NCBI RefSeq assembly: GCF_013374995.1
Contig: NZ_CP056030.1
Coordinates: 4,992,501 to 5,056,500 of the forward strand
DNA: 64,000 nt
DNA from: Pseudomonas eucalypticola
GTDB taxonomy: Bacteria > Pseudomonadota > Gammaproteobacteria > Pseudomonadales > Pseudomonadaceae
Direction: 5' to 3'
Shown here: positions 12,176 to 17,474 of the stretch, one piece after another
Position numbering within the stretch: position 1 is the first letter of the stretch
Layout of the letters: each line of letters opens with the position of its first letter
Notes under the pieces: generated by a model
Database searches by the model: none
What the model was told of the DNA's origin: nothing
Seen by the model: the letters and a program-made list of their open reading frames with translations, nothing else
Program-made: the position numbers and the translations under genes

Positions 12176-12865
12176 ATGCTTCGTCGCTCCACTACCGCCA
12201 CCGGCCTGTTGGCCGGCTTGCTGCTTTGTGCCAACGCTTTCGCCGTGGACCTTTCCAGCCTTTCCCAGGGCGACGCCAGTGGCGGCCTCAAGGACGCCCT
12301 CACCCAGGGCGCCCAGGTGGCCGTCAAGCAACTGGGCACCCCCGGCGGCTTCAGCAACAACCCTGACGTGCGTATCGAACTGCCGGGCAAACTGGGCAAG
12401 GCCGCCAAGGCCATGAAGAAATTCGGCATGGGCGGCCAGGTCGATGCGCTGGAAACCAGCATGAACCAGGCGGCCGAAGCCGCCATGCCGCAAGCCCAGG
12501 CACTGCTGGTAGACGCCGTGAAGAAGATGACCGTGACCGATGCCAAGGGCATCCTCACCGGTGGAAACGACTCTGCGACCCAGTACCTGAGCAAGACCAG
12601 CCGTGAGCAGATCCGCGCCAAGTTTTTGCCCATCGTCAAACAGGCCACTGACAAGGTCGGCCTGGCGCAGAAGTTCAATGGCTTCGCCGGCCAGGCTGCC
12701 AGCCTGGGTGTGATCGACGCCAAGGACTCGAACCTGGAAGGCTACGTGACCGAACAGGCGCTGAACGGCCTGTTCAAGGAAATCGCCAACCAGGAAGCCA
12801 GCATCCGCAAAAACCCGGCGCAGGCGGCGACCAGCTTGGCCAAGAAGGTGTTCAGCGCACTCTGA
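12176..12865 (+). CDS. DUF4197 exported protein
   Basis: A 229-residue protein with a signal peptide (LLLCANAFA-VDLSS) and then an alpha-helical, Lys/Ala/Gln-rich chain. DUF4197 features include GLKDALTQGAQVAVKQLG near the N-terminus, and DAKGILTGGNDSATQYL and KFLPIVKQATDKVGL in the middle. No enzymatic motif. Expected in the periplasm. AAGGACGCCGCC precedes the ATG. It ends at a hairpin (12885-12916) shared with the convergent fic gene. Confidence 0.85.
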   Translation: MLRRSTTATGLLAGLLLCANAFAVDLSSLSQGDASGGLKDALTQGAQVAVKQLGTPGGFSNNPDVRIELPGKLGKAAKAMKKFGMGGQVDALETSMNQAAEAAMPQAQALLVDAVKKMTVTDAKGILTGGNDSATQYLSKTSREQIRAKFLPIVKQATDKVGLAQKFNGFAGQAASLGVIDAKDSNLEGYVTEQALNGLFKEIANQEASIRKNPAQAATSLAKKVFSAL

Positions 12866-12884
12866 TGCGCGCACCTGATGCTAC

Positions 12885-12916
12885 GCAGCGGCCATTACGG
12901 GCCCGATGGCCGCTGC
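12885..12916. terminator. Hairpin between DUF4197 gene and fic
   Basis: Perfect 11-bp inverted repeat (GCAGCGGCCAT at 12885-12895 and its complement at 12906-12916) with a ten-base loop, between convergent genes. There is no T-run, so it may be a Rho-dependent end or mRNA stabiliser. Confidence 0.5.
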
Positions 12917-12938
12917 CGCATCCGAGGAGGCGGCTGAG

Positions 12939-14285
12939 TTACCGCCAGGCTTGTCGGATCTGGCTTTTATCCGCCATGCTGAATACCCATTCGCGGCCGC
13001 GCTTGACCTTTACGAACAGGCCCAGATCCACCAGCCCATTCAGCGCCGCCGAAGCCGTGTTGTAGGAGCAACCCAGGTTCTCCTTCGCCGTAACGGCAGT
13101 GAACGCTATGGCTGAGCCGGTTCGCGCGACTTGCAACAGTGCCCGCTGGTGCTCATTGAGGTGGACGTACACCCCGGAGTTCACCCACCAATGCTCGAAC
13201 GCCTGGGCATCAGCGAGGCTGCGCGTATAGGTTTCGGTAAACTGGGTGACGGCACGAATGATCAACCCGCATTGGTACTCGATGAAATAGGTCAGGTCCA
13301 GGTCATCGGTTTCCGTGTGCAGGTAGGAGCGCCCATATTTGACGGGCGCATTCTTGAGCAGCACGCTGATCGCAATGTAGCGAAAGACGCAGTAGTCACT
13401 CTTGAACATCAACCAATAGAACAGTGCCCGGGCGACCCGGCCATTCCCGTCACGGAAGGGGTGTTCATACCCGATGGCGAAATGCAGGGATATTGCTCGG
13501 ATCAGCGGGTGCAGGTAGCCCTGTTCCTCGACGTTCTCAGGTGCGGCGTTCACCCATTCCACCAACCGCTGCAAGCGCTCCTCCAAGCCAGCGGCCGGAG
13601 GCGGCACATGCACGGTGTTGCCCTCACCATCCTGCACGACCACCTGGTCGTGATTGCGAAACTGGCCCGGTGTGTACTTGTCGTCGTCGATGCCCGTGAC
13701 GCCTGTCTCATGCATCTCTTCGATCAGTTTTACGCTCAGCGGGGCATGGCGCTGCTCCCAGGCAAACTTCATCATGCGGTAGTTGCCCAGAATCATGCGC
13801 TCGTCCGGGGTGCGTGGCTGACGTTGACGCTTGAGCAGGTCCTTGGCGACCAGTGTGGTGGTAGCAGCCCCCTCCAACTGGCTGCTGCTGATGGCCTCGT
13901 CCTCAATCAAGTCATTGAGCAGGTAATTGAAGTGGGCGGCCTCCCCCAACTGGCGGGTGATGTACTCCATAGCCGCGCGGGTGGCATGGCGGTCCACCAA
14001 GGCCATTGCCTTATGCGATTGGGGCGTCGCGCACCAGGTACCCCACTGCAACGGCTGGCCCAGGGGTATCAGCGCCCGCTGCGCACTGAGGCGGGCCGCC
14101 TTGACCATTGACCAGCACAGGATCGGAACCAGTGTCGAGGGCCAACGGTGGCGTAGCTCATCGAAATGCAAATAGCGCCCCTTGTCATCGACGACCGCGT
14201 GCAGGGCCATGTAATGCGCAGGTGCCGCCAGGAAAGCCGGGTGGCTGGCAGCCTCGTCGAGGCTGAGGCAAAGGGGCGGCTTCAT
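12939..14285 (-). CDS. Fic-domain protein with N-terminal inhibitory helix and C-terminal winged helix
   Basis: Enzyme of the Fic family, normally transferring AMP from ATP to a protein side chain. The 448-residue protein has the full active motif HPFRDGNGRVAR (residues 275-286) and the flap stretch KYTPGQFRN (204-211). SSQLEG at 134-139 fits the inhibitory (S/T)xxxE(G/N) motif, placed before the core as in class II Fic proteins, so it is probably autoinhibited. The C-terminus (about 385-448; LLQVARTGSAIAFTAVTAKE, YNTASAALNGLVDLGLF) looks like a winged helix that could bind DNA. Two matching palindromes around its promoter fit autoregulation. Its target is unknown. There is no antitoxin gene beside it. 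Confidence 0.9.
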   Translation of the reverse strand: MKPPLCLSLDEAASHPAFLAAPAHYMALHAVVDDKGRYLHFDELRHRWPSTLVPILCWSMVKAARLSAQRALIPLGQPLQWGTWCATPQSHKAMALVDRHATRAAMEYITRQLGEAAHFNYLLNDLIEDEAISSSQLEGAATTTLVAKDLLKRQRQPRTPDERMILGNYRMMKFAWEQRHAPLSVKLIEEMHETGVTGIDDDKYTPGQFRNHDQVVVQDGEGNTVHVPPPAAGLEERLQRLVEWVNAAPENVEEQGYLHPLIRAISLHFAIGYEHPFRDGNGRVARALFYWLMFKSDYCVFRYIAISVLLKNAPVKYGRSYLHTETDDLDLTYFIEYQCGLIIRAVTQFTETYTRSLADAQAFEHWWVNSGVYVHLNEHQRALLQVARTGSAIAFTAVTAKENLGCSYNTASAALNGLVDLGLFVKVKRGREWVFSMADKSQIRQAWR

Positions 14286-14290
14286 AGAGG

Positions 14291-14320
14291 CTGTCTCAAT
14301 ATTCCTGTTTATTGAGACAG
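14291..14320. promoter_or_regulatory. Candidate operator 1 of fic (start-proximal)
   Basis: Perfect inverted repeat: ten-base arms CTGTCTCAAT and ATTGAGACAG around a ten-base spacer. It begins six bases upstream of the fic ATG and covers the expected transcription start and leader. Its core TCTCAAT-N10-ATTGAGA is identical to that of operator 2. Confidence 0.75.
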
Positions 14321-14321
14321 C

Positions 14322-14350
14322 ATTACAGCAGAAAAACAGTCATCTCTCAA
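14322..14350 (-). promoter_or_regulatory. Predicted sigma-70 promoter of fic
   Basis: On the minus strand TTGAGA (14350-14345; 5/6 to TTGACA) is separated by exactly 17 bases from TGTAAT (14327-14322; 5/6 to TATAAT). The -35 box is formed by one arm of operator 2, and operator 1 begins just past the -10 box, so a protein bound to either palindrome should block transcription. Confidence 0.7.
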
Positions 14351-14368
14351 TTTTTCGGATTATTGAGA
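14345..14368. promoter_or_regulatory. Candidate operator 2 of fic (start-distal)
   Basis: Inverted repeat TCTCAAT-N10-ATTGAGA with the same arm sequence and spacer as operator 1. The two centres are 51 bases apart, close to five helical turns, so both sites would face the same side of DNA. Confidence 0.72.
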
Positions 14369-14388
14369 TAACGACGGTTCGCCGTTTA

Positions 14389-16566
14389 TCAGAACCGATA
14401 AACCGCCGCCAGCACCGCTGAACGCCCATCCCCGTACTCCACCGCCGCAGACCGCGTCTGGCTGCCTGTCACCGCCCTCACCCGCTCGATGTACCGGGTA
14501 TCCAGCAGGTTGTCGAGGTTCAGCTGAAGGTCCAGTTCCGGGCTGACGCGGTAGCCGAGCATCGCCTGGTGTACCCAGTAGCCATCCAGCTTGTAGCGTT
14601 CGTCATTGCGCAGGTTGCGCTCGCTCACGTGACGAGCCCCATACCCTACGCGCCAATCCTCAGACAGCTGGTAGGCGGTCCACAGGCTGAATGACCGAGG
14701 CGGTGTGTTGGCCAGCGCCTGGCCTTCAGCACGCGGGTTGGCACGTGATTTCAGGGTTTCGCTCTGCAGGAAGCTGTAGTTGGCGAAGACCTGCCATTGC
14801 TGGCTCAAGCGACCGGTCACGCCCAGTTCCACCCCCTGTACACGTTGCAGCCCTGCCAGCAGCGACTCGCCGGTTTCGAGCTTCTCGCGCACATTGTCTT
14901 TCTGCATGCGGAACAGCGCCGCATCCAGCTGCAAGCCACCGTCGAGCACTTCCCACTTGGTGCCCAGCTCCCAGGTGCGGCTGGTTTCCGGGGCTACCTT
15001 TCGCGTCTGCTGGGTCACCCCATAGCCGCCGGTGACCAGGTTCTCGGCCGAGGGATTGAATGAGTTGCCATAGGCCAGGTACACGCGGCCGTTGGGCGCC
15101 GGCTTGTAAACCAGCCCGGCGCGATGGCTGAGGAAGGTGTCGCGGGTTTCATGTTCCCCCACCGCACCACTGGGTTTGCGCTCCAGGCTGCTGCCGTCGA
15201 TCCAGTCGTGGCGCAGGCCCAGCACCAGGTCCCAATGAGGGGTGAAGCTCAGGGTGTCGAACACATACAGCCCAGTGGTCTGCAAGCGGTTGCGCACCGA
15301 AGCGCCGCGGGTGCGGTCCAGCGGCCCGTGCCAGTAGCCCGGCGGGTTGGCCAGGTCATAGACAGGGCCATCTTTCAGGCCTACCTGGGCGTAACTGTTG
15401 GTGTCACGCCGGTAGCGCTCATAGGACACATCCAGGCCCGTCACCAGCGCATGGCCAACACCGAATGTGTCGAACCGGCGGGTGAGGCTGGTGCTGTTGA
15501 GCCACTGGTCGGTCACGATGTCGCGACCGTACCCCTGGGGGCCAGCCGGCCGATACTTGCCGGGTGGCAGCCCAGCCTGGCTGACATGGGAAGCCGAAAC
15601 CACGCCACTCCGGTCTACCCGGGCGTAGCGCAGGGTGTTCTGCAGGGCCAGGCCCTCATCGAAGTCATGCTCGAACACAGCACTGAGCCGGTCCGTGGTG
15701 ATGTGGTCCTTGTCCAGGTTGCGCCAGCCGAAGTAGCTGTCGTGGGCGACCCCGTCGAGCACCTTGCCGCGCAGCGTCGGCAAACCATAGTCCGGCAGGT
15801 TGTCGTCCTTCTGGTGGTAGTAGCTGAGGGTCAGCCGCGTAGCCTCCCCCAGCCCCAACAGCAAGGACGGCGCCAGGCCCCAGCGCTCGCGGTCGATCTG
15901 GTTGCGCCCGGGTACATCGTTCTGGTGCGCCATGAGGTTCAGGCGCACTGCGCTGCCGCTGCCCACGCCGGGAAGCGGCTGGTTGGTGTCCAGGGTCAGG
16001 CGCCGGTAATGGTCGGTGCCCAGGGCCGCGCCCAGTTCGGTGAAGGCCTCGGCCTGGGGGGTCTTGCTCACGAGGTTGACGCTGCCGCCCGTGGTGCCGG
16101 CGCCCCCGAACACCGAGTTGGGGCCCTTGATCACCTCGACGGCCTGGAGGTTGAAGCCGTCGCTGCGGGTGGTCTGCGCGGTGTCGCGCAGGCCATCGAG
16201 CAGCAGATTGCTCGATGCATCGAAACCGCGAATGTTGATCAGGTCGCCGGAGCCGCCACCGCCTTCGCCGGCCGCGAAGGTGATCCCCGACACGTTGGAC
16301 AGCACCTGGCGCAGGCTCAAGGCATTTTGCTCGCGCATGATCTGCTCGCCGACCACCGTGATCGTCTGCGGCACTTCCAGCAGCGGCTCGCTGAGCTTGG
16401 CCGAGGCCGAGCGCTCGGCCTTGTAGGCACGCTGGCGCTCGCGCTCGGCTTCTATCCGCAGCGATTCGAGCTCCAGCGGCGCACCCTCGGCCAGTGCCAG
16501 CCAGGAGCACGACATCAGCGCCAACCCGGTAACGGGCCGTGCGCCCCCTTGTCTTTGATGTGCCAT
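14389..16566 (-). CDS. TonB-dependent siderophore receptor (Fiu/PiuA-like)
   Basis: Outer-membrane gated barrel importing a ferric siderophore, probably a catecholate type. It has 725 residues: signal peptide (SCSWLALAEG), plug domain (LLEVPQTITVVGEQIM, QVLSNVSGITFAAGEGGGG, NIRGFDASSNLLLDGLRD, VEVIKGPNSVFGGAGTTGGS) and a beta-barrel ending in aromatic F (AAVYRF). The ATG at 16566 follows GGGGAGGA; an earlier TTG is not used. There is no N-terminal signalling domain, so it is not a transducing receptor. I see no Fur box in the 125 bases upstream, which is odd for an iron receptor. It is co-directional with rsmJ, but a hairpin separates them. Confidence 0.9.
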   Translation of the reverse strand: MAHQRQGGARPVTGLALMSCSWLALAEGAPLELESLRIEAERERQRAYKAERSASAKLSEPLLEVPQTITVVGEQIMREQNALSLRQVLSNVSGITFAAGEGGGGSGDLINIRGFDASSNLLLDGLRDTAQTTRSDGFNLQAVEVIKGPNSVFGGAGTTGGSVNLVSKTPQAEAFTELGAALGTDHYRRLTLDTNQPLPGVGSGSAVRLNLMAHQNDVPGRNQIDRERWGLAPSLLLGLGEATRLTLSYYHQKDDNLPDYGLPTLRGKVLDGVAHDSYFGWRNLDKDHITTDRLSAVFEHDFDEGLALQNTLRYARVDRSGVVSASHVSQAGLPPGKYRPAGPQGYGRDIVTDQWLNSTSLTRRFDTFGVGHALVTGLDVSYERYRRDTNSYAQVGLKDGPVYDLANPPGYWHGPLDRTRGASVRNRLQTTGLYVFDTLSFTPHWDLVLGLRHDWIDGSSLERKPSGAVGEHETRDTFLSHRAGLVYKPAPNGRVYLAYGNSFNPSAENLVTGGYGVTQQTRKVAPETSRTWELGTKWEVLDGGLQLDAALFRMQKDNVREKLETGESLLAGLQRVQGVELGVTGRLSQQWQVFANYSFLQSETLKSRANPRAEGQALANTPPRSFSLWTAYQLSEDWRVGYGARHVSERNLRNDERYKLDGYWVHQAMLGYRVSPELDLQLNLDNLLDTRYIERVRAVTGSQTRSAAVEYGDGRSAVLAAVYRF

Positions 16567-16631
16567 GAAACGGTTCCTCCCCAAAATCGAGGGGGAAGTT
16601 TATGGGCCAGAAGCGCGAAAAAACCGGCGCT

Positions 16632-16671
16632 GAAAAAATCAGGAAGGGTCCTACTTCAGGGCTGTAGGACC
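16632..16671 (-). terminator. Terminator after rsmJ
   Basis: Inverted repeat GGTCCTAC (16647-16654) / GTAGGACC (16664-16671) with a nine-base loop. On the minus strand it is followed after nine bases by a run of six Ts. It separates rsmJ from the receptor gene. Confidence 0.6.
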
Positions 16672-16691
16672 GCAGGGCTGCAGGCGACGAC

Positions 16692-17474
16692 TCACGGTTT
16701 CAGCGCTTTCTTGGGATAGATGTCATAGCGGCTCGACTTGCCTTCCAGGCTGTGGCTCGGCTTCGGCCCCTCGATGGACGGTGCCTTGCGCGGGCGCTTG
16801 ACCACCACCCGGTGGCTGGCCAGCGCCAGCGCGGCGGCCAGCAGCGCCGGGGCATCCATGTCATCGCCCACCAGCGGGCGGAACAGGCGCATTTCCTTTT
16901 TCACCAAGGCACTCTTCTCTCGATGGGGGAACATCGGGTCCAGGTAGATGACCTGGGGCGGCTCACCTTCCCACGCGCGAATCAGGTCGATGGCATTGCC
17001 CTTGAGCAACTGCATGCGGGAGACGATCGCCCCTACGTCCAGGTCCCCTGCCGCGCGGGCGAGGCCGTCTTCCAGCAGCGCGCCGATGATGGGCTGGCGT
17101 TCGATCAGGCTCATGTCGCAGCCCAGGCTGGCCAGCACGAAAGCGTCCTTGCCCAAGCCCGCGGTGGCGTCCAGCACGCGCGGGCGCACGCCCTGCTGCA
17201 CGCCCACGGCCTTGGCGATCATTTGCCCGCTGCCACCCCCGAACAGCCGCCGATGGGCCACCGCGCCCTCGACGAAGTCGACCCGCACCGGCCCTGGCGC
17301 ATCCTCGCCCAACTGTTGCAGTTGCAACCCGGCTTCGGTGGCCTGCAGCGCAAACTCGGCGTCGTCGATGTCCAGCGGCAATGCCAGGCGCTGCGCCCAC
17401 TGCTGTGCCACCGGTTGAAGGGCGTCGTTCTGGGCCTCGACGCGGATACGAACCGCCGCTTGCTGCTGTGCCAT
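16692..17474 (-). CDS. rsmJ: 16S rRNA (guanine-N2)-methyltransferase
   Basis: Methylates N2 of G1516 in 16S rRNA. About 260 residues. The SAM-binding motif is [19 protein letters not shown], the catalytic-type motif is [13 protein letters not shown], and the RsmJ hallmark stretch [16 protein letters not shown] follows. I chose the ATG at 17474 (GTGGATTCC before it); a GTG three codons upstream (17483) is possible. The C-terminal [17 protein letters not shown] is typical of the family. Confidence 0.93.

Follow-up and report, generated by a model that had tools for sequence, protein, structure and literature searches.

Predicted autorepression of a Fic enzyme through its own winged helix at two identical dyads bracketing the fic promoter of Pseudomonas eucalypticola

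The idea that HTH domains fused to Fic proteins may regulate fic genes was suggested by Kinch et al. in 2009, and that article also cites the type II toxin-antitoxin operons of which Phd-Doc is one, in which a protein of the Fic/Doc fold is encoded and the operon is autorepressed at dyads (PMC2686095). More specifically, CccR of Yersinia pseudotuberculosis (YPK_0951, PDB 7XUX) represses its own promoter via a C-terminal HTH, and the operator within that promoter is given as AGATAATCAT-N26-ATGATAATCT by Wang et al. 2022 (PMC9755527). For CbFic2, random 20-bp DNA causes dimerisation and stimulates AMPylation and deAMPylation; the authors of this 2023 paper leave sequence specificity open and give DNA binding by SoFic as not shown (PMC10628234). 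The related EcSofic is restrained by a small protein, AS1, according to a further report (PMC12249575). Autorepression by a Fic-HTH protein is not new as a principle, and the view in an earlier note on the present DNA, that such an enzyme-repressor fusion is not well described, gives way to the 2009 proposal and the 2022 description of CccR. In the open-licence literature that we searched, CccR is the single case of operator binding by a Fic-HTH protein that was found.

The window analysed here is a stretch of 64,000 nucleotides from Pseudomonas eucalypticola, and its fic gene and the associated features are listed in Table 1. The gaps flanking fic measure 73 and 103 bp, the latter being the upstream gap that holds both dyads, and neither leaves room for a separate adjacent antitoxin or partner gene. 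The product matches the Pfam Fic family (PF02661, E 1.7e-17) and the PADLOC SoFic model (E 1.6e-42). Its HPFRDGNGR stretch at residues 275-283 agrees with the Fic motif HPFx[D/E]GN[G/K]R, and residues H275, F277, D279, G280, N281, G282, R283 and R286 are invariant among 74 sequences. The stretch SSSQLEG, which we take to be the inhibitory-helix motif, has the N-terminal S/TxxxEG form with its Glu, and S134, E138 and G139 are invariant in the same 74 sequences. An inhibitory motif is also described for CccR (PMC9755527). We infer that the fic product is a canonical, autoinhibited Fic enzyme, for which AMPylating activity is predicted. The C-terminal winged-helix-like region noticed earlier is real, as an AlphaFold2 model with a mean pLDDT of 93.5 places helices at residues 378-388, 397-404 and 408-420 and a hairpin at 424-437, with residue 409 as the second residue of the recognition helix. 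This model fits the structures of SoFic, CccR and CbFic2 in both the Fic domain and the winged helix. Several homologues of 369-397 aa in Pseudomonas have no winged helix (L032, L034, L038-L040, L043-L047, L049-L051 and others). The tails of L034 and L040 resemble those of their full-length counterparts, and this points to an internal loss of the winged helix.

Table 1. Positions of the features discussed, in coordinates of the window.
Feature	Position	Strand	Remarks
DUF4197 gene	12176-12865		convergent with fic
fic	12939..14285	-	ORF, 448 aa; class II Fic protein, winged helix at the C-terminus; ATG at 14285 (ORF listing)
Winged helix of Fic	12975..13154	-	residues 378-437; recognition helix 408-420; residue 409 codon 13059-13061
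Fic motif HPFRDGNGRVAR	13428..13463	-	residues 275-286, intact
Putative inhibitory-helix motif SSSQLEG	13869..13889	-	residues 133-139, N-terminal (class II) position
Proximal operator (predicted)	14290..14321	.	12-bp arms 14290-14301 and 14310-14321, core 14294-14317
Predicted -10 box TGTAAT	14322..14327	-	17 nt from -35 box
Predicted -35 box TTGAGA	14345..14350	-	fic-side half-site of distal dyad
Distal operator (predicted)	14345..14368	.	fic-side half-site is the predicted -35 box
TonB-receptor gene	14389-16584	same as fic	fic lies downstream of it

The pattern TCTCAAT-N10-ATTGAGA is exact at both places upstream of fic (14294-14317 and 14345-14368), with dyad axes at 14305.5 and 14356.5 and therefore 51 bp apart, which confirms the earlier description of two inverted repeats with the same arms and spacer. 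The proximal dyad has 12-bp arms, GCTGTCTCAATA and TATTGAGACAGC, and is longer than had been stated; it ends 4 bp before the fic ATG, and each dyad can be described in hexamers as TCTCAA-N12-TTGAGA. The exact pattern occurs in the 6.4-Mb genome at these 2 places only, with 0 one-mismatch and 3 two-mismatch places. The region upstream of fic stands out from 199 dinucleotide shuffles (p=0.005), and the 64-kb window holds 3 matches with at most three mismatches against a shuffle mean of 0.77. A wider regulon in the same genome was considered and rejected, as the two-mismatch places are no more than the level of a small control, the reversed pattern (1 place per strand). One of these places is a different dyad, TCACAAT-N10-ATTGTGA, between rpmE-like and malic-enzyme-like genes (L004 1501-1524, G000:C1:480704-480727). 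Across the genus (249 genomes), the exact pattern is present at 5 places in 4 genomes, 3 of them beside fic (2 in the window and 1 upstream of the gene in genome G108) and 2 where fic is missing (G051 and G223). Neither of the latter genomes has a fic match at E<=1e-40, and in both the dyad site adjoins a DUF4197-like gene, the counterpart of the one found after fic in the window. In G051 (L036, around 1440-1560), the DNA that matches 12956-14266 of the window is gone and the upstream part with the dyads is retained; in G223 (L037, around 1500-1590), a genome only 73% complete, fic is absent between its usual neighbours and the dyads remain.

The predicted promoter lies between and within these repeats. 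Transcription would start near 14315, about 7 nt past the -10 box and inside the proximal dyad, and the promoter boxes and start site proposed in the earlier note fit the dyads as described, but a consensus promoter scanner reported no promoter in the region upstream of fic, because its rule accepts only A as the second base of the -10 box and TGTAAT has G there. When 28 homologues were aligned on the distal half-site, TTGAG was retained in most and a TRTANT-like box 17 nt from it was seen in many, neither being invariant.

The earlier proposal of fic repression by the winged helix of Fic itself is, in our assessment, very probably correct. The C-terminal winged helix would act as a sequence-specific DNA-binding domain, with one Fic dimer predicted to bind each operator (half-site TCTCAA, N12, TTGAGA) and with the two operators bracketing the fic promoter, the distal one over the -35 box and the proximal one over the start site and the ribosome-binding region. 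Two dimers on the same helix face, separated by about five turns and perhaps binding cooperatively, would keep RNA polymerase out, and by this exclusion Fic would hold its own level low through negative feedback. A repressor typically has its sites over the -35 box and the start region, and this argues against an alternative in which Fic binds the same operators but activates fic, or serves as a switch with its enzyme activity governed by the bound DNA, and any repression is a side effect. That alternative draws on CbFic2, which shares the Fic-HTH architecture and whose AMPylation and deAMPylation are stimulated by DNA binding (PMC10628234), but CccR is described as a repressor (PMC9755527). 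We regard an activator or switch as unlikely, and such a role is in any case compatible with autorepression.

Recurrence of the dyads upstream of fic homologues, the absence of which the earlier note had named as refuting its proposal, is observed in many genera. Homologues were collected from the genus (50/249 genomes at 1e-40), the class (32/274 at 1e-50, and 37/369 at 1e-60 in a second, overlapping draw), the phylum (10/398) and the order (5/56), together with named loci (the best 80 of 545) and 35 loci on viral contigs. The 206 loci were reduced to 184 of at least 415 aa and then to 130 under 85% identity. In the 120 bp upstream of the gene, the top-scoring inverted repeat reached p<=0.05 in 77 of 129 homologues below 85% identity, the other 52 falling short of that level, and in 10 of 126 control stretches taken 274-400 bp upstream; at p<=0.01, the counts were 51/129 and 3/126. 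In an earlier set of 99 representatives, a score of at least 10 was obtained for 45 upstream regions and for 14 regions just past the stop codon, with 1 of 97 far upstream. Hosts of named loci include, among the matches listed, Vibrio, Pseudoalteromonas, Marinomonas, Cellvibrio, Shewanella and Pectobacterium. A proximal dyad that carries the half-site of its own lineage recurs upstream of many homologues, and proximal and distal sites with the same half-site are both present in 30, with axes 49-52 bp apart in 25 of them. This spacing is short for a DNA loop, and the looping suggested in the earlier note finds no support; in our view the distance fits two neighbouring dimers on one helix face better. 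The further suggestion in that note, that the AMPylation state of Fic could set repression, likewise finds no support here. Fic homologues with winged helices were also found on 35 IMG/VR contigs (L183-L217), some with a similar upstream dyad.

The half-sites vary by lineage (TCTCAA, TTTCAA, ACTCAA, TATCAA, TACTAA, TACTTG and rarer ones), and this variation follows the recognition helix of Fic. Of 91 homologues assigned to an operator class, 85 have the matching residue at 409, with the reservation that the classes were named after half-sites and helices had been viewed together and that 39 of the 130 representatives have no operator class. More specifically, N409 is found with CTCAA in 46/49, TTTCAA in 10/10 and CCGCAA in 1/1, A409 with TATCAA in 11/11, Q409 with CTAA in 10/11, D409 with ACTTG in 6/6 and E409 with ACTAC in 1/1, while the ATAGG class has both M and G at this position; one of the exceptions, L155, looks like a misread site. 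An unsupervised measure, the mutual information with the raw hexamers, also ranks column 409 first of 430. In a co-change scan on a tree built from residues 1-352 alone, 6 of the 13 operator changes share branches with changes of column 409, which number 10; this column ranks first of 413 (p=7.2e-6, against 7.6e-4 for the second), and the mean -log10 p is 1.27 for residues 403-413 versus 0.57 for residues 1-352. Score threshold, class merging and root were varied in 24 settings, with 404 to 413 columns compared in each, and column 409 kept the first rank every time. Within the N409 proteins, A407 accompanies 27 of 29 xTTCAA half-sites and S407 accompanies 107 of 116 xCTCAA half-sites, and wing residue 431 is N or S at 25 of 29 xTTCAA half-sites, these counts being of half-sites that are not independent. 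Independent-pair tests had 2-3 usable pairs per class, too few for inference, with 0 contrary and 0 significant. A partial Mantel scan of single columns places 409 first of 420 (0.519); in windows of 10 residues, the highest value belongs to 301-310 in the Fic domain (0.505) and 402-411 is 12th of 439 (0.315). We attribute the peak at 301-310 to the deep split within the family and prefer the tree-based scan. It is possible to express these relations as a putative recognition code, in which N409 would go with xCTCAA or TTTCAA, A with TATCAA, Q with TACTAA and D with TACTTG.

Natural losses of the helix were compared in one Pseudomonas group of 64 loci picked by N-terminal sequence, to the exclusion of other loci, using distinct upstream sequences. 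The proximal match to TCTCAA-N12-TTGAGA averages 8.93 of 12 where the CxYNTA helix is intact (27 distinct sequences), 6.92 where it is altered (13) and 7.14 where the protein has no winged helix (14), against a background of 5.43 (53); the difference between the intact group and the other two has a Mann-Whitney p of 8.8e-6, uncorrected for relatedness, and one sequence fitted none of the three helix groups. The distal site drops little (9.52, 9.0 and 8.93 in the same order; p=0.02), and a match of about 9 of 12 despite an altered or lost helix implies that part of the distal element is retained for another reason. In this group (for example L006, L008 and L023), a nested TCRGA-N4-TCYGA repeat shares sequence with the distal site and is conserved despite change or loss of the helix; it is perhaps the site of another regulator.

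The conserved distal element with its nested repeat would also suit a second alternative, in which the dyads are bound by some unrelated regulator from another locus and the winged helix of Fic is coincidental. Against it, the genome has no further exact or one-mismatch copies of the sites. Moreover, the half-sites change together with the recognition helix of Fic itself, the proximal site weakens with alteration or loss of the winged helix, and the dyads accompany fic across differing neighbourhoods, following a TonB receptor gene in the window and an RND-transporter-like sequence elsewhere. We therefore consider a coincidental winged helix very unlikely. The least probable alternative, to which we give hardly any credence, takes the proximal repeat for an RNA hairpin in the fic leader, acting in translational control or attenuation, and although the predicted hairpin at 14290-14321 is stable (-17.7 kcal/mol, z -4.53, 0 of 200 shuffles equally stable), carries AGGA in its loop upstream of the ATG and, with no Rfam match in 12800-16700, leaves room for an undescribed element, the distal dyad with the same half-site lies upstream of the predicted start and outside the predicted transcript, and what homologues conserve is not the stem length but the sequence of the half-site and how far it lies from the axis. 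A ribosome site in the loop is not general, since AGG, GGA or GAG is present in just 19 of 51 proximal spacers, and it was rejected as a rule; the scanner found no terminator-like site in the region upstream of fic.

Autorepression by the winged helix of Fic thus stands as our preferred reading, and signs of the same arrangement appear in SoFic-type genes. A search with NF046030 found such genes in 47 of 229 genomes at 1e-50, with 7 over the cut-off, and an upstream dyad reached p<=0.05 in 12 of 27 versus 1 of 26 controls. By eye, all 7 over-cut-off loci carry TGTCGA/TCGACA half-sites and several SoFic-like loci carry TGTATAG/CTATACA half-sites. Across L218-L246, the dyads TGTCGA..TCGACA, TGTATAG..CTATACA and TTCAAAA..TTTTGAA are seen beside differing recognition helices. 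A bolder and rather doubtful extension is that all Fic-winged-helix enzymes, including the SoFic type, are autorepressors with lineage-specific operators, whose DNA would switch the dimer state and hence AMPylation or deAMPylation, coupling activity to occupancy. Within the literature searched, the paired-operator promoter, the recognition code and the signs of both in SoFic-type genes are new, and our search of open-licence papers found no earlier description of paired operators or of a residue code. A predicted natural site and a residue-to-base code for a broad family allow a direct test of what Fic HTH domains bind. The predicted operator also lets the effect of operator DNA on enzyme activity be asked, where the CbFic2 work had random DNA only (PMC10628234).

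In comparison with known systems, operons of the Phd-Doc type have a separate antitoxin that binds DNA, whereas the Fic of the window has its DNA-binding domain fused to the enzyme and no partner gene alongside. Its likeness to the SoFic defence protein is a distant profile similarity only, as it scores 30.9 bits against the NCBIfam NF046030 cut-off of 550 bits for SoFic (SO_4266, PDB 3EQX/3ZCN) and SoFic anti-phage proteins. CbFic2 (CBU_0822, PDB 8CIL) is, like the window Fic, a class II Fic protein with a winged helix and is the best PDB profile match (E 1.7e-26); it targets histone H3 and has no known natural DNA site (PMC10628234). CccR shares with the window Fic a C-terminal winged helix and an inverted-repeat operator in its own promoter, binding being predicted in the present case. 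However, CccR has one dyad with 10-bp arms and a 26-bp spacer, and HTH helices about 70 A apart (PMC9755527), whereas the window has two N12 dyads 51 bp apart. Finally, CccR is a 380-aa T6SS effector encoded beside an effector locus (PMC9755527), whereas the fic gene of the window sits between the TonB receptor and DUF4197 genes.
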